Below are positions 37,951-55,275 of a stretch of DNA of 64,000 nucleotides, one piece after another (position 1 is the stretch's first letter; every line of letters begins with the position of its first letter). The notes beneath the pieces are model-generated. The model was not told the DNA's origin. It worked only from the letters and a program-made list of their open reading frames with translations, and made no database searches. The translations under genes were made by a program, and so were the position numbers. This DNA comes from Chalara sp. BL73. Lineage: Eukaryota; Ascomycota; Leotiomycetes; Helotiales. The stretch is taken from NCBI GenBank assembly GCA_918026815.1, contig CAKJVC010000207.1, positions 62,001 to 126,000 on the forward strand. The letters run 5' to 3'.

Positions 37951-38457
37951 TCATTTACATCCAATGATTGATGCAGAGTGCACAATGTGTCTAAGTATGG
38001 AAGCGCCATAATGCATCCGACTTTATTGATATCGTTTTACTTGAGTTTCTAGCAACTCAATGAGTCTTGAGATTTGCTTTCTTATATCTCCCAGGCTTTG
38101 TAACCTGACGTTCGTGGGTTCTTATTGGTGGACTTGTGGTATTTTCCCCCTGGGTCTAACGAACATGGCAACAATTTCGGCTCGCTGAAGACTGCACCGA
38201 GCTATATTGCCCTTGCTTTATACCCCGCGAAACTCCCCACACGCTCCGCGATTCAACGTCATTTCGAGTCCCATCCACAGCGACACGCCAATTATTCATG
38301 TAAATGGAATGCTTGGTAAAGTACCGAAAGAGTGGAAGACACGGGGAAGAAGTTCTTCCAATCCAACACGGTTCGTCACGCTGCAGGTACAAAATCAACC
38401 TCCGCCCAAGTGCTATCCCCTCCCTAAAGGTAGGACTGATGCGTAATTTTCATAATC
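37951..38457. other. Intergenic / promoter of rhamnogalacturonan lyase
   Basis: 507 bp between two same-strand genes. No operator was recognised with confidence. Confidence 0.4.
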
Positions 38458-40618
38458 ATGTCTCCCTCTTACCAAGGTTTGTTTTTGCTATTAGGCATAT
38501 TCCCGTATGCCCTGGGTCTCAACGCAACAGAAAACACCACGCAACTTACTCTCTCCAACTCCCGCCTTTCCGCCACTGTCTCCAAAGCTGGCGGGGCGAT
38601 TACATCTTTGACACTTGACGGCCAAAATCTTCTAGGTACGCGTTCAGGAAGCACTGGAATTGGTCCCTACCTTGATTGCTATTGCACGCCTTCAGGTTTC
38701 TACACACCTGGCTCAATCGCGCCAAGCTACAAGCTCATCACTGGCACCGATAGCACCAACACTGCGTATGGCGGCATTGTAATGTCCGAGGTATACCCTC
38801 CTACGGGGCAACTCCTGGAACAATACTGGTTCTTAAGAGAGGGAGAGACAGGGCTGCATGTTTTCAGCCGGCTGGCGTATTACAACGAGACAAAGCCATT
38901 CTTGAGGAACTTACAAGAATTCCGCACCCTATTTCGACCCAATACGCCACTCTGGACGCATCTGCTCACAAATAAAAATCATTATGCTCCTCTACCATCC
39001 AAAAATGCAGTCAGCAAACAGGTTGTGGTGCAAGACGCAACCTGGTATTTAGGAAACACACCCGAGGATCCCTATGTAAAGCAAGAGGGTGAGTATTTCA
39101 CAAAGTATATCTTCGCGGACACGTGGCGAGATCATGATGCCCACGGTTTATTTGCGGATGGGAGCCAGAGTCCAGGCAATGAGACGTTTGGAGCGTGGTT
39201 GGTCCACAACACTAGAGAAACATATTTTGGAGGCCCTCTACATTCTGATTTGACGGTCGATGGGATTGTGTATAATTATCTAGGTAAGTTTGGATATACG
39301 ACTTGAGATATTGAAGTGGGCTGACTAGGATAGTCTCGAACCATCATGGTGATGGCACGCCAAATATCACAAATGGTTTTGACCGTACTTTCGGTCCGGT
39401 AAGCTTGAAGTTTGGAAGGTCGTGGATCTTAATACTGATTATTTCAAGCAATACTATTACTTCAATAAAGGTGCTCCCGGATCATCCTTAGAGACTCTTC
39501 GTAGCGATGCAGCAAAACTCGCCAATCCAACCTGGAACTCCGAATTCTACGACTCCATCGCAAAGCATGTTCCAAACTACGTTCCATCATCCAATCGCAC
39601 AACCTGGAACGGAGAAATTGACCTCCCTACAGGTGCAAACGATGCTGTCGCCGTTCTCGCCCAAGATGGCGTAGATTTCCAAGATAATGACCGTCATCCC
39701 TCGAAATTTCAATACTGGTCAGCCATTTCGCCTTCTGGCAGCGTTACCATCCCCTCTGTAGTTGCTGGGACATATCGTCTGACTGTCTATGCGTCCGGGA
39801 TATTTGGACAATACACAAAAGATGGCATCGTGATAAAACCAGGCGTCAGAACTGCCACGTACGCAAAATGGACTCCCGAGTCCCATGGAACCGAAATCTT
39901 CCGCATTGGCACCCCCGATCTCTCGGCGGGCGAGTTCCGTCATGGGAACTACCCTTCCCCCAATGCCACACTCCATCCGCCAGAATACAAAAACTACTGG
40001 CCTGTTCATGATTTCGTCAATGATTTTCCTTCTGGAGTGAAATATGTGGTAGGGGAAAGTGACCCTGCCAGAGACTTCAACTATGTGCACTGGTCCGTCT
40101 TCGGAGGCTACGGTAACTCCATACGCACCGTGCCATATGTTGGGCACGGAGAGGTGAATAATTGGACCGTGGTGTTTGATCTTGAGAAGCAGCGGAGGAG
40201 TAAAAGTTGGGAGCAGGCGACGTTCACGGTACAGCTTGCGGGTGTAAAAACTGCGGCTGGAAACACGGACGTGTATAATGCCTCAGAGCCGTGGGCTAAC
40301 CTACCTTATACTGTTGTTGTTAACAAGCATGAGTTGGAGCCTTGGGTTATTCCGTAAGTTTCCCTTACTTTGGTTTTCTTTCGAAGTCAAGGACTAATGG
40401 GTTTATAAAGGTATTATCACAGCTCCTCATGTGCGGTACGATCAGAGGTAAGCTGTTACAACGTGGCGAATAAGTTTGTTTTCCCAGCGACATTCTTGAA
40501 GGACGGGAAGAACGAGATTGTGTTGAGCTTGCCATATAATGCGACTGATTATGAGAGTGCCATTTTGGCGAGGAGTATCTACGTGCAGTATGATGCATTG
40601 CGGTTGGAGGTTAAATAG
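38458..40618 (+). CDS. rglB: Secreted rhamnogalacturonan lyase (PL4), RglB-type
   Basis: There are four exons, 38458-39283, 39334-39398, 39449-40353 and 40411-40618, giving 667 residues. The N-terminus MSPSYQGLFLLLGIFPYALG is a signal peptide. The protein cleaves the rhamnose-galacturonate backbone of pectin rhamnogalacturonan I by beta-elimination, outside the cell. Family text includes LTLSNSRLSATVSKAGGAIT, EQYWFLREGETGLHVFSRL, the spliced NYLVSNHHGDGTPNITNGFD and FGP/QYYYFNKG, then a fibronectin-like middle domain (VPSVVAGTYRL-type text) and a C-terminal carbohydrate-binding-like domain ending YVQYDALRLEVK. Many N-x-S/T sites fit a secreted glycoprotein. The length is near that of Aspergillus RglB rather than the shorter RglA. 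The stop at the exon 3 donor shows that the last exon is required. Confidence 0.9.
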
Positions 40619-40840: not shown

Positions 40841-41866
40841 CTAGTCCTTCTCATTAGGATATGAAGGCCCGAACACCGGATGTACAAATACGCCCTCCGC
40901 TCTCGGATCCTTTACTGCCCGCTCCGTAACCCAATTTGAATAATGTTCCCAATCCACGCACACGCTATCTACTTCAAAATCCCCCCACGGGATCCGCGTA
41001 TCGGGCATCCACTGGTAGGTCATCATGCTGGCGGAGGCGTGGCACTGGATCCACTTGCGCATCAGGTCTAGACAGTGATCGACGTGATCGATCACCGTGA
41101 TATGTTTGGTTGGCTTCAGGGTGTAGGCCTCGGGGTGTGCGAATTGATAGAGCCACCACAGGCAATGTAGTTGATGGTATGTCTATAATCCAGCCTCTAT
41201 CAGCAAATAGGAAAGAGAGAGAGCCAATAGGAGGGGAGAAGTACGTCTGGGGTTGCGAGGTATTTGCCTGATCCATCAGAGACTTGGATTGACGTTCGAT
41301 TTAGTCGATTCAGCTCTTCTTCACTGATGAGCATATCACCATCTACCATTTATGTATAAGAATAGCGTCGTTTTGTCTTCGGGTTTTGACTTACATCGAA
41401 ATAAAGAAGTCCACGCTTCATCTACTTCCGGAGATGGCGGACCTCTGAAAACGCTGCTGTTATCAACGGATTCATGAACTGTTCGGACTTCATATTTGAT
41501 TGCATCTCGCATGGGTGCTATTTAGATTTCAGCACATGGCCTTAATACGTGAAGATGGTAAAAGACTAGCGATAACCTACAGTAGAGCATTTCATTCGGG
41601 TTTTGTAATGCAGGCAAAGCTTTTGGGGCAGGGAAAGTATACACCTTGAGCAATGCAGCTATTAACACGGTGGTGTAGAAGGTGAGAGTGAATATGTGAA
41701 CTATAATCCATCTTCGGGACGTCTTGTTCTTGCTTTTAAATCCACGAGACCTGCCGCTCTCGGCTTCACCATAGTCACAATTAGATTTCTCTAATAGTTT
41801 GGTGGAAGACGAGTCTGTTTCCGCAGATTCCAGCGAGGCTGATCGATATGTCCTAAGAGGGGACAT
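40841..41866 (-). CDS. UstYa-family (DUF3328) oxidase 1
   Basis: There are four exons, 41866-41581, 41517-41395, 41342-41245 and 41182-40841, giving 282 residues. Exon 1 has a basic/Ser N-tail and one transmembrane helix (WIIVHIFTLTFYTTVLIAAL). After the helix the spliced text reads LYSPMRDAIKYEVR, then GDMLISEEELNRLNRTSI, then the paired metal-binding-type motifs YHQLHC and HVDHCLD. UstYa proteins are single-pass secretory-pathway oxidases that, in ustiloxin, phomopsin and asperipin pathways, oxidise and cyclise Kex2-released core peptides. All three splice joins fall on family-conserved positions. It lies at the left edge of the peptide cluster. The C-terminus (after HVDHC) is long and Trp-rich. 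Confidence 0.88.
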
Positions 41867-42658: not shown

Positions 42659-43650
42659 TCAAGAATCCTTTTCAATACCATCTCCAAAATCAACCACCAC
42701 TGCGTGATCGCGTGCCCAGTCGTTGATAGTATCCATATTTACACAATTCTTTCTTAGAGGTAACATTGGAAGAGGCTTATCACCTTCCGCAACTCGTTTT
42801 ACATGCCAGGTTACTGGAGTAATATCAGGCTGGCAAAGTAAGGCTTGCCGAATCCAGTCTAGACAGTGATCTAAGAGCCATTAGCGTTCTGAAACCAATG
42901 GCTAGAGCTTCCCCCTGCGCACATACCAATGTGCTTGGCATTTTTTCCAGTGAAGTTCCTCCCTCCATTCTCTGACAAGAAATCGTGAAAGTCATCCCTG
43001 TAACGCTCAACTTCCGGAAGCCATATCGCTTTTCTGATAGTGTTTAAGCAGTGAAGCTGATGGTAGACATCCAACTCAATTAGGAACTGATCCGGTCGAT
43101 TTGGTATGTTCAAGGTTGTCGAGTCTAGCTTCGCAGCTTCAACTTCGCTTATTTGGCTGCTCATCTTTTCTATCGAACTCAGCACTCATATTTGGCTGCG
43201 AGGGGGAAATGCATCTTACCATCATATAGTTCTTTCCATTTTGCATCAGTCACATCGCTAGGGAGGCCATCAACAGAATTTGCCATGTATAGTGTCCGGT
43301 CAAATAAATCATCGACGAGAGTAGTAGGTTTGTACGCTACTAGATGTTGTACAGGCGCTTTGAGTGATGTTAGAAAGCTTGACAGATGGTTCTAAGTTTG
43401 CCTTACAATATATTTCGTATGACGGTTTATACCCTCGTGTTCGATCAAGAGCAAAAGCGGCAACCCAAAAAAGCGTAAATACGACTCCTGAACAAAACCA
43501 GAAGATGCTCGATATATGCCGATGCAAATTCCTTCTTGGAGTCGGCTTCTCGAGTTCATCATCAACGACGTCGGACAAAAGTCCGCACCGCTCTACATCG
43601 TCTTCAATCTTCGACGTCGACATTGAGAGTGGCATTAGGAAGTCAAACAC
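42659..43650 (-). CDS. UstYa-family (DUF3328) oxidase 2
   Basis: There are four exons, 43650-43407, 43357-43220, 43169-42927 and 42870-42659, giving 278 residues. Other in-frame ATGs (codons 6 and 10) could serve as start. One transmembrane helix (ISSIFWFCSGVVFTLFWVAA) is followed by the spliced EIYSPVQHLVAYKP, then TLYMANSVDGLPSDV and KWKELYDEKM. VYHQLHCLNTIRKAIW follows, and the last join creates KHIDHCLDWIRQAL. The two Cys/His motifs are intact. It is transcribed divergently from tyrosinase 1, with a 386-bp spacer. The predicted role is an oxidative step on the Trp/Tyr core of the PSWYYD peptide, by analogy with UstYa/UstYb. Confidence 0.88.
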
Positions 43651-44036: not shown

Positions 44037-45330
44037 ATGGCAAAATCTGGGAAGGGACGTATTTCTCTTTACCTTGAGAGTTCAAAAGACAGACATGATG
44101 ATTGTCAACTAGACGAGGATTCATTGCCTAGCAAAAGATATGATTGTGCACACGTTTTTGGGATAAGAATTGGCTTTTCTCTTCTATTATTTATATTCAT
44201 ATCACTAGCGATTTGGATGAATGCGGGACTCCCTCAAGAGTAAGCCGTGAGTTTTACTCACAGAAAATTCAATAACTAACGGCTCAATAGTCCCAATCAA
44301 GCACTTGGTCCATCTTCGTGTGAGTGTTATTTCTTACATGGCTCAAACACTCATTCATAACATTGACTTCAATTATAGGCCCGGAAAATAAAAGATTGTA
44401 TGTTCGAAAAGAATGGAGGGCTTTGACTTTCGAAGAACAGCACTCATACCTTGATGGTATTAAATGCTTAACCGCCAAAAGCTCGAAACTAGACCTCAAC
44501 ACCAGCAGATATGATGACTTTACCTATGCACACCTTCGATTGGTTGAGCAGACTCATAGAGTTGCTTTATCAATGCCATGGCATCGGATGTTCATTTGGA
44601 TATGGGAGCAGACACTTCGTCAAGAATGTGGTTATAAAGGATATCTGCCGTGAGTGTTTCGCGTATAAGATATACATCTAAGAATTCTAATTTTATACTA
44701 AGGTATTGGGACTGGTTGATCAACCCTGTAAAGTTAAACTTATCTTCTATTTGGGATACCGAACATGGTTTCGGTGGCAATGGATCAGCTCTGAATGGCT
44801 GCGTCAAGGGAGGTCCGCTGCAGAATATACTTCTCAATTACACCGAGGATGGATACCAACCCCATTGTCTGAAGCGGAATCTTGCCGAGAGTGAGGCATT
44901 TTATGGAGGGGAAAGTGAAGCAGTGGAAGCTATCATCAATAATGCAAAGACATATGAACAGTTCAGAAATGAACTGGAAACTGGCCCTCACAAGCATATA
45001 CATATGGGAATAAGTGGTGAGATGAAACATGCATGGTCAACAAACGGTAAACAAAATACATGATAGCAGAAATAAGAGAGATGCTGATTTGGAATATCAG
45101 ATCCACTGTTCTTTTTGCATCATGCTCAACTTGATCGGATATGGTCTATCTGGCAAGATCGCGATCCCCTAAGAAGGCATCATGATTATGGGGGGAAAAC
45201 TTACATGAGCAGAAAGGCATCGACTCAGGATATAGTTAGTACTTTTGGGCTGAGAAATAACGTGACAGTCTTGGAGGTGCTAGATATACGAGCTGGGCCT
45301 TTCTGCTATGGCTATTCAAGTGCGATATAG
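44037..45330 (+). CDS. Membrane-anchored tyrosinase (UstQ-like) 1
   Basis: There are five exons, 44037-44239, 44291-44319, 44379-44649, 44703-45046 and 45101-45330, giving 358 residues. The N-terminus has a signal-anchor helix (IGFSLLLFIFISLAIWM). The copper A site is complete: His129 (TYAH), His137 (QTHRV) and His146 (MPWHRMF), with the usual x7/x8 spacing. The copper B site is also complete: His264-x3-His268 in GPHKHIHMGI, then NDPLFFLHHAQLDRIW formed at the last splice. YWDW and GFGGNGS are family marks. Type-3 copper tyrosinases oxidise phenols; in ustiloxin and phomopsin clusters UstQ/PhomQ acts on the tyrosine of the core peptide. It is transcribed divergently from UstYa 2. Exon 2 is only 29 nt. 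Confidence 0.88.
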
Positions 45331-45944
45331 CTCCACAGTAGGTCTTAGAGTTAGGAGGTCGTATAATCACTGTCTTTCAAATTTACGCCGCTCCTTTGGA
45401 TACATTTTCGTAGAAGAATCAGCTAAAATGCCTAAAAGACCAAGCAATGAGCTTGTCTGAGCATTGAAGTTTACAATCCGATGTATTCACGGTACATCAG
45501 AGCTATGAGTCTGAGCTATCTTTTCTCTGGAAACCTTCCTGTTGGTTCCGTAGGATACCTATCACGCAGCAAAAGGCGTAGTAGCTATTGACTACGCTCT
45601 TGCTGGTGTGATTATGGTTCCTTGATTGATTGTTCTAAGATTCTACTCTACGGCTATGGAAGTGGTGTAGGTATGCCCCGCATGTCACGTGCGACATGGA
45701 TGGCATACCGACACTTCCCATATGGGGAATAATTGAATCATTAAATCTCTTAGGACAACCAACTATACAGAGATCAACGCTAAGTCCTTACAGCTGTAGG
45801 GTAATTCTGAATATCAGAGTCGAGATGAGCTCGACGCATTGGGGCACGAATATAACCTAGATCATAATTGAAGGATTGTAGTTTCAGCTACCCTCTAAGA
45901 AAACTGTTTGTGGTATAAACATGGTATAAGAGTCTACGGAGATA
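45331..45944. other. Convergent spacer
   Basis: 614 bp between the convergent 3' ends of tyrosinase 1 and the Zn2Cys6 regulator. No gene was seen. Confidence 0.4.
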
Positions 45945-48647
45945 TCACCCACGAGTATCAGACCTTCTCCCATCTTCCAGAAACCATGTATCCTCAATTC
46001 CAACTGCTGTCTCCCAAAATTGACCGTCAAGAGCTGAATGTGGATCTGCAAGCCAGGATGGAGAGAAGCTAACCTCAGGTATTTCTGCAGGTGTCGCCTC
46101 GTTGAAAAGATTTGGCTCTGATATTTCATTTGGTGGTAGTAGCATCTTCGGTAATTAGCATGGGTGAATGAGGTTTGCGATTGTTGAATTAACGAACATA
46201 AATTCTTACCAGTGGAGCATCAAAAGCCGCTTGCTTAGGTGGCTGTATGTCAAAGCTACCATCTCTAAACAGAGGTGCAGTACTTTCCCCAATCACGCTA
46301 CGATGATGGCCTTGGTGGATCTTGAAAGTTGCATGAGCCACAGCTCCTAAGTCGGAGATTTCGTTGAATCCAGAATCAAGCTTTGCGGATAAAGCAAATT
46401 GTGCAAACAACCCAGAAGCAATTGTTAGGAGAGTGCTATCCCCTGTTTTTCCCGTTCCAACCATCATCTCTCGAAAGATTATACACCAGCAGATTATATA
46501 AAGATTGACTCGCGTGCTTGTTTTCCAAGTCAGCATTGACATCTCTTCTCTCTATCATTGAAGGATTACTTACTAAGATGCAAATATACCAACACCATGC
46601 TTTGGGGTATTAAGATGACTTAGTATGTCTCTTGCTGTATCCGAGTTGGCGCATGAAGGCTCAGAGTTATGCTGTCCCAGACAATTCCCACCTATGCTCC
46701 TTGGGCAAGGATTAGAATTTTCCAACTTAGTCAATTTGGCTATGTAGTAGTAGTTCAATAAGTACTCATGCTCACTACTTTCTCTTGGCTCTCTGATTTG
46801 GTAACAACCCTGGCTCTGTCTTCCTGTCTGTGGCATAGACTGGACTACCTCTTCTTTCCATTTATCTAAGGCGGCAAGAACGGATTCTTTAAATATGCAA
46901 TCATTGTATTGTGGATTGTCGGGGTTTCCTACAAACTTAATCCCTCTGTCGTGAGGAGTTGTGCTTATGTTCCAGCATATATGGGCATATTCGCAAAAGC
47001 TTGCTATAGCTAAAGAAGACTCATCCGCAGCACTATCATGCGTTGAAAGTCGCCTGACCGGGGGAGCAAACTCAATAGTGGTAATTGAGAGTTTCTTAAA
47101 AAAAGTCAGCTAAAAAGAAGGTCTCTCTATGCGGTGCGTCTTACCGGATTATAGTTCTCTACAAGACAAAGTATGTGTTCCATGCACCAAAGGGACCACA
47201 CAATGTTCTTCAGCGTTTCTTCCGGGTAATCCGTTGAGGATATACTAAGCACAGTCGAGATTGTGTTTAATCCAAGAGATTGAAGCATATTTACTGCACT
47301 TGACACAACATCGGACTTTCCTGAACAAGGATAATGGAGCTCGGAAAGAAGCTATGGAATGTCAATTGTAAAATATTTGGAGTTGACAGTGCAGACTTCC
47401 ACCTCTAGGATATACAACTTACCAGCACAACCAAGCACTACTAGATTAGCTTGAATCTGACTGATAGGAACCTTTTTTAAGAATATTTACCTGAAGCTTT
47501 GCAATTGACGGTTTTTCTTTTTCAATCTGCCTGCTAACTGTGGATGCAATCTTGGCATAGTCTCTTGAATTTTGATCGTCGCCAGAGATTTGGTATCCCA
47601 GTGATACCACACTGTAAAGAAACGTCCTTTCTTCTGCTAAAGATGCATCTGAAAGATTTTCTAAGATTTTCTCGATGCTCCACCTCGCAACAAGAGATCT
47701 TCCTCTGGTCAAAAATTAAACCAATTTTGGCAGTATGGAAACAGTTTCTGCTTACAGAGCATACCCCTCAAAGAAACCTGTAAATCGTTACTAAAACTGT
47801 AGATTCGGAGGAGAGGCACTAAAATATACTATTGACACCAACTCTCAGTCTCCGACTATCAAAGGCGAGTATTGTTAGACTAGAAATATCCAGTTCTGAG
47901 AGATATGGCTTCAATGATTCAACTTTCTGTGCAAGCATCTCCAAACTTTGCATTACATGTCCTTTCACTAATTTCTCTTTGCCAAGAACCCAGATTTCAT
48001 GCGCAAGTAGTGAAGCGAATGGGATGAATTTCTTTCTTGTGGTTTCTTGGATTCGATTAGCATCGTATCTAAGATAGGTGATAACCACGAACTTTTTTCG
48101 AACTCATATCTCTCCTCTAACTGCTTTTCGTTAGCATTGACTTCATTTCAAAGTTGAGTAACACTTGCGGTCATGAGCTCTGGTGCTGATACCAAAAGTG
48201 TACGCTCAGATAGGAAAGAAATAATGTCATTATTGGGCAGATTGCAGCAGTCCGCGATCCCGCTATCGATACTCTTTGAGTTTCTTCCGTGAAGTGTGAC
48301 TTTTGCCGTAGATTCTACTGAATTCACAGGAGCAATAATATTGGGAATGTTAGTTGTCAATGGAGGCAGATCTTGGTCTATTCATAAGTTAACAAAACGG
48401 AGTTCAAATTTCATCATGTGTCTTACTTGATCTTTTGTGATTAGAGATAGGATAAACGCAGCCCAAATCTCCTCGCTAAGTATACTTTGTTTTAGACAAG
48501 CTTATTTAACTGCCGATCTAGCATCCTTACGTTACATGTACTGCATGGCCGCTCACCATTACATCTTATTTTCCTCTCCTTGCATGAGATACATGCACCA
48601 CGGCGCCTCTTAATCTTGAAAATCCTATTCGGTGGTGCTTCAGGCAT
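45945..48647 (-). CDS. Zn2Cys6 transcription factor, likely cluster regulator; two frame problems
   Basis: The N-terminal zinc cluster is canonical: CISC, six residues, C, five, CSTC, then six to C45 supplied by exon 2. A basic KIKRRR stretch precedes it. My exons are 48647-48531, 48475-48427, 48377-48163, 48120-47830, 47777-47756, 47704-47491, 47456-47423, 47351-47145, 47094-46574, 46516-46210 and 46145-45945. Most joins are in phase and give coherent text (ARWSIEKILENLSD, NIVWSLWCMEHILCLVEN, FREMMVGTGKTGDSTLL). Two are not. Exon 4 is one base short of the length needed to link its start (SSWLSPILDTML) to its end (FIPFASLLAHEIW). Exon 7, ended at the GTAAGT donor, is out of phase with exon 8; a weaker donor GTGGAA at the end of LYILE would cure the second. 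The gene may be decaying, or my splice choices are wrong. It is probably the pathway-specific activator, inferred from position. Confidence 0.78.
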
Positions 48648-50095
48648 GACAATAATGAGTTCTAGAAATCTATCGAGTGAAGAAATATAGAAGTTAAGCA
48701 AGAAGTTTTATTGTGGCTTTTCTCATAACAGAGGCAAAAGTCCCTTGCTTTGAGCTTGGTGAGGCGGGTATTGTGGGGTCTCAGATCCACTTGTATGCCA
48801 AGCACACTATATTCCCACAAAAGAATGCAATTCTAGAATCTGTGCTCGCTGCAGGTAAGCAAAAACATAGACCGATGTAACCTACGGATGAGCGGTCGGC
48901 AATAGTAATAGATATACAGCATGATACACAAATGACTTGGGACTATCCCAAATCTGACGGCGATCAGTGCATGTTAGCTGAGTTTAGGTTCTCATTAAGC
49001 GGCAAGCTCTAAATATCTAGTAACTTGAATTTTACTTTACGCAGAGCCAACCATTAGTGGATTAAAAGCTGCCGACGTAGAATTACCTTCGAAAGTAATC
49101 GATTGCCGATCTACTAAGCATGCAGCTTACGTAGGCTTTCGGCGTTCTAGAGTCAGCTTGCTGCTTACATGATCTGCATCTGCATAGGACCCCAGAATGA
49201 TTGCATTTTCCATTTCAGGAGGACAATGTTATGATGTGAGGAGTTAGGAAAAACGCATGAGTTAGAGTGGTGGGTTTTATGCACGGCTTTTTGGATACGG
49301 TTGCGAGTTCGGAATCTAGCGGCATGCCTTGATATTTAATACAGTATTAAACCTTTGGAGATTTAAAATTTAATTAAAAATTTTACGTAAATGCACCTAA
49401 ATAGAGAATAGCTCCTATGAAGATGGTTTAAGCTTTGCTTAACTTTCAAAAGGTGAATTCAGTTATTATTTTATGCTTTGGAGTAAACTGATAACAGTGA
49501 TCCGTAAATGTAAACGAGCTAAAATACTTTAGCCTATGTTCTACTTAATTTTACCCCATTATTCCTGCTACTATATGTTTTGCCACACCTTTCAGCATAG
49601 ATAATAGATTGTAAATTTCAACGTAAGAAGCCATGCTATACATACTTATTTAACCTAAAATAGCTAAGTTCAAATTTCAAAGACTTGTTACACTTATAAA
49701 ATATGCGTGTAAAGAACTGGCTGTTATAGTTTAGAAACCATAGCAAAGCTCCAAAAAAGGAGACTGATGCCATCCTTTCACATACAAGGCAATGTTGATG
49801 CTCAATAAAGTGGCAAAAAGTAAAAAGACGTCGTTATGCAAGCGATAATTTTAATTCCTGATTTAGCTACTGAATCCACCCATTCTACGACCGTCGGCTA
49901 ACAACAAATAACTGTCCACTCTGTATTGAAGTTATTAAGAAATTTCCAGGCTCCCTTCGAACTCTCTTTCTCGGACTCATTATTTCTAGGATAAGAAAAC
50001 ATCCTTCCAGAAGCTTTGCAAACGAGAGATTTTTCTGACAATCCATGCGACCAACCAGAGTGGAAAAAGTTGTCATTTGTAATATGATCTTTTCC
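48648..50095. other. AT-rich gene-free spacer inside the cluster
   Basis: 1.45 kb between the regulator's promoter side and the precursor's 3' end. It is strongly AT-rich at about 49330-49860. No ORF, tRNA or element end was recognised. It could be a decayed (RIP-affected) repeat, but I see no parent element. Confidence 0.4.
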
Positions 50096-50613
50096 CTAGA
50101 CATCTCTCTTGGCAAGCAACTCAGGCTGAGGAACGGCATTGCGCTTCCTGTCGTAATACCAGCTCGGAGAAGCTTCGGCATCACGCTTCTTGTCATAATA
50201 CCAGCTTGGCACTGCCTCTGGTTCAGCATTACGCTTTTTATCGTAGTACCAGCTTGGCGCTGCCTCTGGCTCAGCATCGCGCTTTTTATCGTAATACCAA
50301 CTTGGTGCTGCCTCTGGCTCAGCATCGCGCTTTTTATCGTAATACCAACTTGGTGCTGCCTCTGGCTCAGCATCGCGCTTTTTATCGTAATACCAGCTTG
50401 GTGCTGCCTCTGGCTCAGCATCGCGCTTTTTATCGTAATACCAGCTTGGTGATGCCTCTGGTGCACGCTTATCCTCGTGTGGGGCCCTGGTATCATCGAG
50501 TTAGTAGGGACCTTATTGCGTTATAGACAGTATAAAGCCCACGGGATTGGAGTTGCATGAGAAGTGGACTGCAGCAGCGCCACTCCAACAAGTGCAAAAA
50601 TGATAGACTTCAT
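50096..50613 (-). CDS. Repeat-containing secreted RiPP precursor peptide (dikaritin/KEP type), core PSWYYD
   Basis: There are two exons, 50613-50543 and 50486-50096, giving 153 residues. The 56-nt intron has a GTGGGC donor, a TACTAAC branch and an ACCAG acceptor. The start MKSIIFALVGVALLQSTSHA is a signal peptide. After a short APHEDKR leader come seven units of 14-16 residues. Units 2-5 are identical (DAEPEAAPSWYYDKKR). Unit 6 differs at two positions (NAEPEAV). Units 1 and 7 are shorter (APEASPSWYYDKKR; DAEASPSWYYDRKR). A 14-residue tail (NAVPQ...AKRDV) closes it. Every unit ends in KKR or RKR, the Kex2 cleavage type used in ustiloxin, phomopsin and asperipin precursors. The hexapeptide PSWYYD is invariant, so it, or SWYYD within it, is the likely core. 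Neighbouring UstYa proteins and tyrosinases fit cross-linking of Trp/Tyr side chains. The product is unknown to me. Confidence 0.9.
50141..50464 (-). repeat. Seven-unit coding tandem repeat (42-48 bp units)
   Basis: Unit borders on the minus strand are 50464-50423, 50422-50375, 50374-50327, 50326-50279, 50278-50231, 50230-50183 and 50182-50141. Units 3 and 4 are identical at the DNA level and unit 2 differs from them by one silent base. Unit 5 differs by a few silent bases, while 6 and 7 have diverged. This is the pattern of recent internal duplication with older outer copies. Confidence 0.93.
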
Positions 50614-51183: not shown

Positions 51184-52229
51184 ATGCCCCACTACAGTAG
51201 TCGACTATCTGCTGCAAAAACTTATCTGCATATGAAAAAAGCAGCAGACGAGGAGAAGGAACCATTTATTTATTCAGATGACATAACATCAGGGGGAAAT
51301 CGTAGCCGTAATAGCTTGGACGTTTTCTCAAGCATCTCAGATTTCGCCCAACGTCCCATCCTACTCTGGCTGATCATCGTTTTCCTTTTGATATGTAACA
51401 CGGCGCTGTACATTAGCTACGGCTCATTTCCCGGAGTACCGTGGTCCCGGACAGATTTTGGTATGTGTGCTACTGCATAAAAGTGCTCGAAAGAAACCCG
51501 GCTGAAGATTCAAGGACCGTCTCGAAATGCAATTTCAAGAAAACTTGTCAAGTTCTCCAGCGGTCTCGACTTCCTAGACACAAAGAAGAATATATACCGG
51601 ATCTACAACCCTGATGAGCCCATATACGTAGGAAATAGCACTGACGTGGACAGAAATTGGGACGGGTTAATCATGCGTAGGTATATTTCTAAATTTTAAT
51701 TAGTGGATCTCGCAGCAGAGATATACTAAGAGAACAAGCCGGTTATAACGAAATTAAGATAACTACCAAAGAGACTAAATTGATTGACGGAGACATTTAT
51801 ATGTTTCCTGATGGTACATATACGATTGCGTAAGAGTTGCTTTCGTGAAAAGAAAAACCAGCTATTAATCAATTATACGGTGCTACAGGCTTTCTGTTTT
51901 CCACAACCTTCATTGTTTAAATACAATACGAAAACGAGTCTACTCGGACATCTATCCTCATATGTTGAGCGATAATGCCAAGATACATGTTGGTAAGTGG
52001 ACCTCAAGCAACAAAGCGACGCTTTAGATCAGGTCCCGAAGCTAACTAATGATGAAAAGACCACTGTATAGAAGCGCTTAGAGAAATGATCATGTGTGGA
52101 GGCGATATGACCCCAATTCCATACGTATGGTCTGAGAATGGAATGACCGATAATCCGGAATTTCCCATCATACATACGTGTCGAGACTTTAACCAGCTGC
52201 AAGAATGGATCATTAGGAGGCACTCATAG
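51184..52229 (+). CDS. UstYa-family (DUF3328) oxidase 3
   Basis: There are five exons: 51184-51460, 51515-51676 (or 51680), 51721 (or 51716)-51829, 51889-51992 and 52060-52229, giving about 273-276 residues. One transmembrane helix (PILLWLIIVFLLICNTALYI) is followed by GPSRNAISRKLVKFS, then NWDGLIM. After a very short second intron, whose exact borders I cannot fix, comes ILREQAGYNEIKIT. Then come ALSVFHNLHCLNTIRK and, from the last splice, KIHVDHCIEALREMIMCGGD. The HxxHC and HVDHC motifs are both present; the first is HNLHC rather than the more common HQLHC. It shares a promoter with the precursor, which suggests co-expression and a role on the same peptide. Confidence 0.82.
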
Positions 52230-52479: not shown

Positions 52480-53341
52480 TCACCTTTCATGATAGTGCCC
52501 AGAATGAGCACCAGTTGCTATAAAATCCTTAGCAGCAGGTGGAACTCTCGCAGCCATATACTCCATAACAGATTCCTACCCCTAATTAATATTTTCAAAC
52601 ACAAATGATCAAGTTGGGTCACCAACCTTCTTGCGGCACACATGGCTAACTCCATAACCGTTGATCTGCGGGTCTTTTTCAGGGTCTTGATCAGCCCATT
52701 CAATGGTCATATCACTGACGCATTCAATATTCTGGCGGAGGTAGTCAAAACAGTGCTCAATATGATGTAAAGATGGACCTGGGTCTCCCTCCGCTCGTCT
52801 GCCAGGGTCGGCCTTGCTTTGCAAGGAATGGTACTCATCTCTTATCATCATCAAACAATGAAGTTGATGTGTCCAAGACAGTCCATAAAGCTTTCTGAGC
52901 CCCTTTGGGCCATGTGGAACTCCCAGAGGAAGACCATACTTAGAAGGATTATCGATCCAGACAAATCCTGGGTCTTCTAATCTCAGATTATCCCATATTG
53001 CTTCCTCTCGCTCTGGTGGTATCCTGCTAATTATACGATGCTCCACAGGAACTAGATATTGACCGTCAGCTTCGTCTCCTAAAGGAAATGAGAGACGGAC
53101 GATGGGATTCGATGCCTTGTCCAGCGCAAGAAATAGGCCAATTTTGTTGAAATAAGTAGGCTGAGACCAATGTACCAAACGCAAAAATTAGAACTCCAGC
53201 CAAAGTACACAGGATTTGTCGGAGAATTTTTAGGCTTGTCCATTTTCTAGTCTTGGAACGATATGGTCTAGAAGTAAAATCTTCAAAACTGTCCCTCCTT
53301 TCATCATCTAGTGGAACTGGCGCATACATCTTTTGCGACAT
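52480..53341 (-). CDS. UstYa-family (DUF3328) oxidase 4
   Basis: There are three exons, 53341-53168, 53115-52627 and 52575-52480, giving 252 residues. Exon 1 has one transmembrane helix (ILRQILCTLAGVLIFAFGTL). The join to exon 2 uses a weak GTCTCA donor with a GACAAG acceptor; it keeps the frame but is the least certain border. Exon 2 has RIPPEREEAIWDNLRLEDPG, THQLHCLMMIRDEY and HHIEHCFDYLRQNIECVSD, so both motifs are intact (second as HIEHC). The last exon adds a 31-residue tail after CRKK. The loop between helix and HQLHC is longer than in the other three and contains no YSP-type start. It is divergent from tyrosinase 2. Confidence 0.82.
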
Positions 53342-53954: not shown

Positions 53955-55275
53955 ATGTGGCCGCTCAAATCTGACCAGTCTAGCTATCTACCAGTGGAAT
54001 CTGAGAGTGGCAGCGAGTTCGAACGTGAAAAACCAAGAAACCGTCGTGCTACAATTATTTCAGTAAAAATATCTGTGTTTACAGTAGTCTTCATAGTTGC
54101 TATTTGCCTGACGCTTGGGTTTGCTAGCGGTGCTGGTTTAGTATGGCGTAACCGCCTTACAACCAGCTTCAGGGCCACACAAACCAAGTGCAGTAGCCTA
54201 AGGATTCGAAGAGAATGGAGAAGTCTCAGTATCAGCGAGAAAGATGAGTACATCACTTCTGTGAAGTGTCTAACGACAAAACAGTCAAAGTTAAGCAAGA
54301 AGGCTGGGGACAGTTTGTACAACGACTTCCCGTATCTGCACGCAACAATCGGAGGCTACTGTAAGTTCACTTGGGAGCCTCTTGGATTTATCGCTGCTAA
54401 TTCTATGGTCGCAGCTCACGGTGCGGCAGCATTTCTAGCATGGCACCGCTTGTTTCTTCATAACTACGAAACGGAGCTGAGAAACAGTTGTGGTTATACA
54501 GGGAGTTTGGTGTGAGATCTTACCATTTTCGCCTGTGCATATATTTGAACTGATCAGATTTTTAGATACTGGGATTGGAGCCTCGATTGGTAATATCCAA
54601 TGCGATTTCGAACTTGGTTCGCAGAGCTGATAATGGCAGGGAATATCTATCAATTTCCCCGGTATTCTCAAACATTACAGGATTTGGCGGAAACGGGGAC
54701 GTAAATGCCCATAAATCAGTTTCTGATGGACACTGTGTAACCGATGGACCTTTCGCTAACCTCCAACTGCCATTCTATGAAGGCGATGATCACGCCCACT
54801 GTCTCTCGCGAGGATTCAAATTTGATCAAAAAATCATTCATGGCAAAATACCAGGAGAATATGTTCGGCCATCGGCGGTTGAAGAGATTCTTAGTCTCCC
54901 AGACTATGAAAGCTTTTTCCTGGCGCTTGAAAGGCACCCTCATAACGCTATCCCTACTGGTATTCGCGGGGATTTCATGGGCTTCACTGCTCCGAATGAC
55001 CCAATTTTCTTCTTACATCATAGGTAACACCGAGTCCCTTCTATGAACCGTAGGTATGCTAATGCTGCTGAAATAGCCAACTGGATCGCCTTTGGTGGAA
55101 GTGGCAGAAACAAAATCCGGTAATAAGGTTGAGTGAATATACAGGCAAATCAAGGAATGACTCTGCAGAAATGGCCACGATGAGTGATATACTTCCAATG
55201 GGGGGGCTTGCCTCTGACATGACAGTTTCGGCTGTAATGGACACCGAGTCGGAATTTCTTTGCTACACATATTGA
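53955..55275 (+). CDS. Membrane-anchored tyrosinase (UstQ-like) 2, altered copper B site
   Basis: There are five exons, 53955-54360, 54415-54511, 54566-54589, 54640-55023 and 55077-55275, giving 369 residues. Exon 3 is only 24 nt and encodes the YWDWSLD segment. A signal-anchor helix (VFTVVFIVAICLTLGFASGA) precedes the catalytic part. Copper A is complete and spaced as in the first tyrosinase: His129 (YLH), His137 (SHG) and His146 (LAWHRLF). In copper B the usual H-x3-H is H277-N-A-I-P281, with proline (CCT) where the second histidine (CAT/CAC) is expected. The later NDPIFFLHHSQLDRLW is intact. The first intron (54 nt) has no stop and is a multiple of three, so a naive frame runs through it. 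Copper binding, and so oxidase activity, may be lost or changed. Confidence 0.86.

Follow-up and report, generated by a model that had tools for sequence, protein, structure and literature searches.

A gene at about 50 kb of the 64-kb window (the whole stretch of DNA that was analysed) encodes a 153-aa protein in which an identical SWYYD core recurs in seven of seven units, each preceded by a run of XA/XP dipeptides and followed by a dibasic site, in the midst of genes for UstYa-family proteins and tyrosinases. We consider it rather likely that this multicore precursor, within its UstYa/tyrosinase cluster, is turned into up to seven cross-linked SWYYD peptides whose spacers are removed by the enzymes that trim alpha-pheromones. 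The dikaritin-type cluster and precursor are of a known kind; what sets this precursor apart is its pheromone-type spacers and its SWYYD core.

The precursor gene and its repeats

ORF and translation analysis placed the two-exon precursor gene on the minus strand at 50613-50096, and the coordinates and the 50542-50487 intron agree with those of the preliminary description, a TACTAAC-bearing intron joining a signal-peptide-like exon to the repeats (Table 1). The signal peptide was predicted by eye only, from a K, the hydrophobic stretch IIFALVGVALL and S-H-A, with S at -3 and A at -1 of the cleavage site. When alternatives were sought as GT-AG introns of 40-200 nt, with a donor at most 400 nt upstream, that join an ATG exon to the PSWYYD frame, three introns were obtained, all ending in the same TACTAAC..AG. 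The 56-nt intron has a weak donor, GTGGGC, and is the only one of the three candidates that retains the complete cleavage region.

Presumed signal cleavage leaves the propeptide TPIPAPHEDKR, followed by the seven units and a short tail. The translation bears out the seven units with an invariant PSWYYD and a terminal KKR or RKR that had been described: PSWYYD lies at the end of each unit, followed by KKR in six and by RKR in one. At the DNA level TRF found a 48-bp tandem array of 5.9 copies (94% matches, score 470), and tandem repeats with dibasic sites between them are what characterizes a Kex2-processed repeat protein (KEP).

The degenerate pattern WYYD[KR]KR matched seven times in the 58.7-Mb genome, always within the precursor, and its reversed control gave no match. 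Searched against its own genome, the precursor matched itself and a single weak relative, present on two contigs (29% identity across residues 28-111, E 9.5e-4), which is a repeat precursor with EEVAAEPAASWAAAKR units. Among the best 7,994 candidates by words in common, a protein-database search returned no annotated homologue at E<=1; since genes that are short and repetitive may escape annotation, the lack of an annotated match does not mean that the gene is absent elsewhere. The strings SWYYD, PSWYYD, SWYYDKKR and WYYDKR were not found in the text of 5.39 million published papers (figures and supplements lay outside the search). The preliminary description knew of no named compound with this core. 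A Fibrinogen_BP match in Pfam was weak and below its cut-off, and was set aside as looking like an effect of composition, because an out-of-frame ORF gives the same match. This domain is assigned to KEP types G-5/P-1 and G-6 in the consulted text of Umemura 2020 (PMC7329392), and membership of the precursor in one of these types is possible.

Table 1 Features of the precursor gene and of the surrounding cluster (positions in the window).
Feature	Position	Strand	Description
Polysaccharide lyase family 4 gene	38440..40354	+	rhamnogalacturonan-lyase-like
UstYa-A	40841..41866	-	282 aa, 4 exons, one TM (by eye), HQLHC and HVDHC, PF11807 E 2.7e-48
UstYa-B	42659..43635	-	273 aa, 4 exons, HQLHC and HIDHC, PF11807 E 1.6e-35
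Tyrosinase 1, UstQ-like	44037..45315	+	N-terminal TM (by eye); 5' gene model provisional
Zn2Cys6 transcription factor	45887..48707, limits approximate	-	PF00172 E 8.4e-8; PF04082 below its cut-off
Precursor exon 2	50096..50486	-	propeptide AP-HEDKR, seven units, tail NAVPQPELLAKRDV, stop
Unit 7	50141..50182	-	DA-EA-SP/SWYYD/RKR, DAEASPSWYYDRKR
Unit 6	50183..50230	-	NA-EP-EA-VP/SWYYD/KKR, NAEPEAVPSWYYDKKR
Units 2-5	50231..50422	-	DA-EP-EA-AP/SWYYD/KKR, four identical 16-residue units, DAEPEAAPSWYYDKKR
Unit 1	50423..50464	-	AP-EA-SP/SWYYD/KKR, APEASPSWYYDKKR
Precursor intron	50487..50542	-	56 nt, GTGGGC ... TACTAAC ... CCAG; one of three GT-AG choices
Precursor exon 1	50543..50613	-	start codon, signal-peptide-like MKSIIFALVGVALLQSTSHA, then TPIP
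UstYa-C	51184..52229	+	267 aa, 5 exons, adjoins precursor, PF11807 E 9.6e-35
UstYa-D	52609..53341	-	226 aa, 2 exons, HQLHC and HIEHC, PF11807 E 2.4e-19
Tyrosinase 2, UstQ-like	53955..55275	+	369 aa, 5 exons, N-terminal TM (by eye), PF00264 E 1.5e-37

Dipeptide register of the spacers

XA/XP dipeptides fill each spacer from the dibasic site up to exactly SWYYD in all seven units, with 3, 4, 4, 4, 4, 4 and 3 steps in units 1 to 7; the tail has three steps before ELLAKR, and the propeptide also parses as TP-IP-AP. An A/P-rich spacer may fall into this pattern by luck (0.07-0.2 for some single units). Shuffling gave probabilities of 0.20, 0.071, 0.014 and 0.05 for the distinct spacers, 0.05 for the tail and 0.20 for the propeptide, and since the units are tandem copies these values are not independent and must not be multiplied. 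A stronger point than the shuffle probabilities is the manner in which the spacers vary, namely in length by whole dipeptides and in sequence at the X positions. Whether six or eight residues long, a spacer stays in dipeptide register and runs up to SWYYD; in the right-aligned spacers three of the four variable columns fall on X positions and the fourth swaps A and P; and the X positions vary (A/D/E/N/S/V) while the A/P positions remain A or P.

Repeats of XA/XP after a Kex2 site constitute the STE13 signature, which according to the consulted text of Le Marquer et al. 2019 (PMC6339444) is generally dedicated to alpha-pheromones in Ascomycota; judged by their sequence, the spacers of the SWYYD precursor are this signature of alpha-pheromone precursors. 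The same text reports the signature to be absent from the precursors of toxic cyclic tetrapeptides (ustiloxin/phomopsin-type) and of epichloecyclins. The preliminary description had assigned the precursor to the ustiloxin, phomopsin and epichloecyclin design; this holds as far as the Kex2-separated repeats among UstYa genes are concerned, and stops at the XA/XP ladder.

As a control, other UstYa-linked repeat precursors of the same genome were scored, drawn from 21 of the 78 stretches of 10 kb planned near UstYa genes elsewhere, and the ladder length was zero in the scored units of all three that were compared. A four-unit YDNPKTATLPY repeat precursor near UstYa genes, identical in sequence on two contigs (L021, 1646-2104 (+), contig C86; L032, 495-953 (-), contig C60), is built of GEAVYDNPKTATLPYxxNSLEAKR and variants (GEAVYDNPKTATLPY...); three of its four units were scored, the first following no dibasic site. 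Close to a UstYa gene lies the precursor built of EEVAAEPAASWAAAKR units (L023, 1672-2064, contig C41; L024, 3798-4190, contig C107; 5/5 units scored), which is the weak relative mentioned above and the only other genome match of the SWYYD precursor. Its spacer, EEVAAEPAA, is also A/P-rich and fails at the first dipeptide, EE, and its presence on two contigs means that the assembly holds duplicated stretches. The third, among several UstYa matches (L035, 5301-5984, contig C97), has eight TNIYPSV... units, seven of them identical (TNIYPSVSFLGDPEAEKVKR), and seven of the eight were scored. By eye, the units left out of the scoring have a ladder of zero too, the eighth L035 unit also beginning with TN.

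The UstYa HMM has 89 matches in the genome, counted exon by exon, and this number suggests that many RiPP-type clusters may be present. A second place with UstYa and tyrosinase matches within 4 kb lies on contig C82 (1275966-1279696), and no repeat precursor was found near these matches in one 10-kb stretch (L045).

Gene cluster around the precursor

Between 40.8 and 55.3 kb the gene order is UstYa-A, UstYa-B, tyrosinase 1, the Zn2Cys6 regulator, the precursor, UstYa-C, UstYa-D and tyrosinase 2. Four PF11807 genes and two UstQ-type tyrosinases thus fall inside 14.5 kb, and UstYa-C starts ~570 bp from the start of the precursor; that the precursor is a Kex2-processed one of the UstYa type, as had been proposed from its repeats, is supported by these six genes around it. 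The cluster accounts for six of the 89 UstYa HMM matches and for four of the 39 tyrosinase matches in the genome, and its Zn2Cys6 transcription factor is likely the cluster regulator. The HxLHC...HxxHC signature is found in 4/4 PF11807 genes. UstYa-B, C and D share 24-27% identity with UstYa-A, and HxLHC, HxxHC and a later Cys are common to all four, which we read as old paralogues and not recent copies. Tyrosinase 2 is 41% identical to Tyrosinase ustQ of Aspergillus parasiticus (P0081).

An HMM search found no S41 peptidase match in the 64-kb window and, genome-wide, one marginal match on another contig; intron-split genes could be missed in both searches. No methyltransferase, P450 or transporter was recognised by Pfam in selected open stretches at 40.8-55.3 kb. 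The polysaccharide lyase gene stands at the left edge of the cluster, and to the right of the cluster there is a stretch with weak similarity to DUF6594, below the cut-off of that family.

Three of the cluster genes, which flank the precursor on both sides, have close counterparts in Bisporella sp. PMI_857: UstYa-A is 96% identical to P0121, UstYa-C 92% identical to P0124 over its 177 aa, and tyrosinase 2 95% identical to P0001, the next match of tyrosinase 2 by E-value, from Colletotrichum orchidophilum, being at 46-49% identity depending on the gene model. We read the three counterparts as lying on one scaffold, the one that carries B0O99DRAFT_621302, _686266 and _571195. With matches of 92-96% identity for three genes in all, spread over both sides of the precursor, this fungus and Bisporella sp. 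PMI_857 probably have the cluster in common, and the DNA probably stems from a near relative of that strain, within Helotiales by NCBI taxonomy. No Bisporella protein was among the matches listed for UstYa-B and UstYa-D.

Maturation, rival readings and known systems

Since secreted-looking repeats of SWYYD and dibasic sites lie among UstYa and tyrosinase genes, the precursor would likely be cut into short aromatic peptides, which these enzymes are predicted to cross-link, and a dikaritin-type RiPP precursor is the most likely reading. From the observed repeat, ladder and gene neighbourhood we infer five steps of maturation. The signal peptide, predicted by eye, would take the chain into the ER; a Golgi kexin would cut after each KKR or RKR; a Ste13-type dipeptidyl aminopeptidase would strip each unit of its three or four XA/XP dipeptides and halt at SW; a Kex1-type carboxypeptidase would take off the basic residues after D; and the UstYa proteins and tyrosinases, in which N-terminal TM segments are visible by eye, would, before or after trimming, oxidise and cross-link the Tyr-Tyr or Trp-Tyr side chains. 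The cross-link could be a bond to Trp or could run, as in asperipin-2a, from Tyr-O to a beta-carbon. For the trimming enzymes, the genome contains one kexin P-domain match, a DPPIV-type protein of 953 aa, which has a single TM near its N-terminus (by eye), and S10 carboxypeptidase matches, 19 in number. In the consulted text of the respective papers, the XA/XP STE13 motif of a basidiomycete repeat precursor was reportedly removed by Pichia pastoris (PMC9769878), and relatives of the UstYa and tyrosinase proteins are needed for cyclisation at Tyr in ustiloxin (PMC6514808).

We put forward more tentatively, and a little short of an even balance, that this would be a dikaritin with an alpha-pheromone trimming code, in which the Ste13 ladder replaces a cluster-encoded peptidase, so that general Golgi exopeptidases alone would free the five-residue WYY core. 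The ladder would predict both ends of the core, hence one pentapeptide, and gives exact masses to seek (computed m/z of 733.283 for SWYYD, 731.267 minus 2H and 729.252 minus 4H, with oxygenated forms at +15.995); if the ladder reading is true, the spacer-bearing peptide expected without STE13 is DAEPEAAPSWYYD. A 2022 review (PMC9233826), in its consulted text, names cluster-encoded peptidases as responsible and raises the question of an origin of such RiPPs in the duplication of mating-pheromone genes. A Ste13-ladder dikaritin-type precursor would make the questions of flank removal and of pheromone origin testable in yeast, and, if true, a pheromone-coded dikaritin would be a living link for the rise of cyclic fungal RiPPs from pheromone precursors. 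According to the consulted text of PMC10512285, the dikaritins reported up to 2022 numbered only five, so that a SWYYD product would likely be new chemistry.

Other readings of the locus place the ladder, the neighbouring genes or the reading frame in a different light. In a dikaritin precursor the acidic, A/P-rich spacer might be a recognition sequence for UstYa that is removed by unspecific or unknown proteases: conserved ED and KR motifs flank the ustiloxin core and are said to be likely needed for its recognition by the modifying enzymes, the proteases that remove these flanks were unknown as of 2019 (both in the consulted text of PMC6514808), and D or E occurs at X positions of the SWYYD spacers. 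Against such a role speak spacers of six and eight residues that both stay in dipeptide register up to SWYYD, and X positions that vary beside A/P positions that remain A or P, and we regard it as unlikely. It is quite unlikely, too, that the locus encodes a linear alpha-pheromone-like signalling peptide that merely lies among UstYa genes, unmodified by them. Although precursors with the STE13 signature have been proposed as hormones, and alpha pheromones are unmodified, as the consulted text of PMC6339444 has it, the SWYYD precursor is surrounded by four UstYa and two tyrosinase genes, one of them as near as UstYa-C, whereas in the consulted text of Umemura 2020 (PMC7329392) a UstYa-type gene accompanies not one of the 227 putative yeast alpha factors, and three of the 216 putative fungal pheromones; moreover, its core has two Tyr and by eye resembles no pheromone motif named in the consulted text of PMC6339444. 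The pattern WCxxxGQxC had one match in the genome, outside any repeat seen in the open frames of at least 50 aa, and two in the reversed control, so it did not reveal the alpha pheromone of this genome.

It is very improbable that the true gene lies in a different frame of the array or that the locus is a dead repeat. The earlier observation that the repeat stays open in other frames is correct, as a 203-aa ATG ORF and two antisense ORFs also span the array. Counted between consecutive units, synonymous and nonsynonymous nucleotide differences stand at 15:11 when the array is read in the PSWYYD frame; the two remaining frames of its strand give 0:24 and 7:16, and one antisense frame gives 16:7, because of which the synonymous count alone cannot settle the frame. 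Third positions make up 12 of the 17 variable columns across 14 codons of the seven units, and seven of the eight across the nine codons of PSWYYDKKR, where one antisense frame fits equally well in both cases. The frame is settled instead by the predicted signal peptide (by eye), the TACTAAC intron, the regular dibasic sites and the cluster, and the PSWYYD frame yields seven identical SWYYD cores; against a dead repeat, the neighbouring genes look intact, three of them with the Bisporella counterparts described above.

Taking the precursor as a dikaritin-type one, the cluster can be set beside known systems. A dikaritin is a RiPP from a KEP that is cyclised by UstYa homologues (PMC10512285, consulted text), and here four UstYa-family genes adjoin the precursor, with UstQ-type tyrosinase and a zinc-finger regulator in the cluster. 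The S41 peptidase is among the highly conserved dikaritin-cluster proteins, without being part of the definition or, in the consulted text, one of the four asperipin-2a genes (PMC6514808); the HMM, which could miss an intron-split gene, found none in this cluster. The lack of a STE13 signature, reported for ustiloxin/phomopsin-type and epichloecyclin precursors as an observation and not as a definition (PMC6339444, consulted text), does not apply to this precursor, with its ladder in 7/7 units. With phomopsin and ustiloxin, as far as the consulted texts of PMC6514808 and PMC7329392 describe them, the cluster shares a signal peptide (here a putative one, by eye), Kex2-separated repeats, several UstYa oxidases, a UstQ/PhomQ-type tyrosinase and a zinc-finger regulator. 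It differs from them in having no YXIX core, two tyrosinases and the XA/XP ladder; no S41 peptidase was found, and in the open stretches submitted to it Pfam recognised neither a methyltransferase nor a P450. Asperipin-2a (AprA, core FYYTGY) offers a similar short core with an aromatic-Tyr-Tyr run and requires a UstYa-type enzyme, its ether bridges arising from Tyr side chains; one UstYa gene and no tyrosinase are listed for it in the consulted text (PMC6514808), against four and two here, and the core is different.

The ascomycete alpha-pheromone precursors resemble the SWYYD precursor in their order of Kex2 sites, XA/XP dipeptides and released peptide (PMC6339444, consulted text). SWYYD lacks the two Cys and the PYGXPXG of the Dothideomycete pheromones of that text (compared by eye with those motifs only), and UstYa and tyrosinase genes adjoin its precursor, whereas 98.6% of 216 putative fungal pheromones have no UstYa-type gene nearby in the consulted text of PMC7329392. 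There, Umemura 2020 also counts 76 KEPs with homology to putative basidiomycete pheromones, 17 of which lie near UstYa-type genes, so the combination of ladder and UstYa genes, rare in the published text examined, is probably not unique. The same consulted text describes a Ccg-4 homologue of Rutstroemia, PQE12560.1, a pheromone-type precursor that has a UstYa-type gene at a distance of two genes and is suggested to mark a stage on the way from pheromone to cyclic product. In PQE12560.1 the pheromone repeats are mixed with Tyr-bearing fragments, whereas in the SWYYD precursor only the aromatic core follows the ladder.
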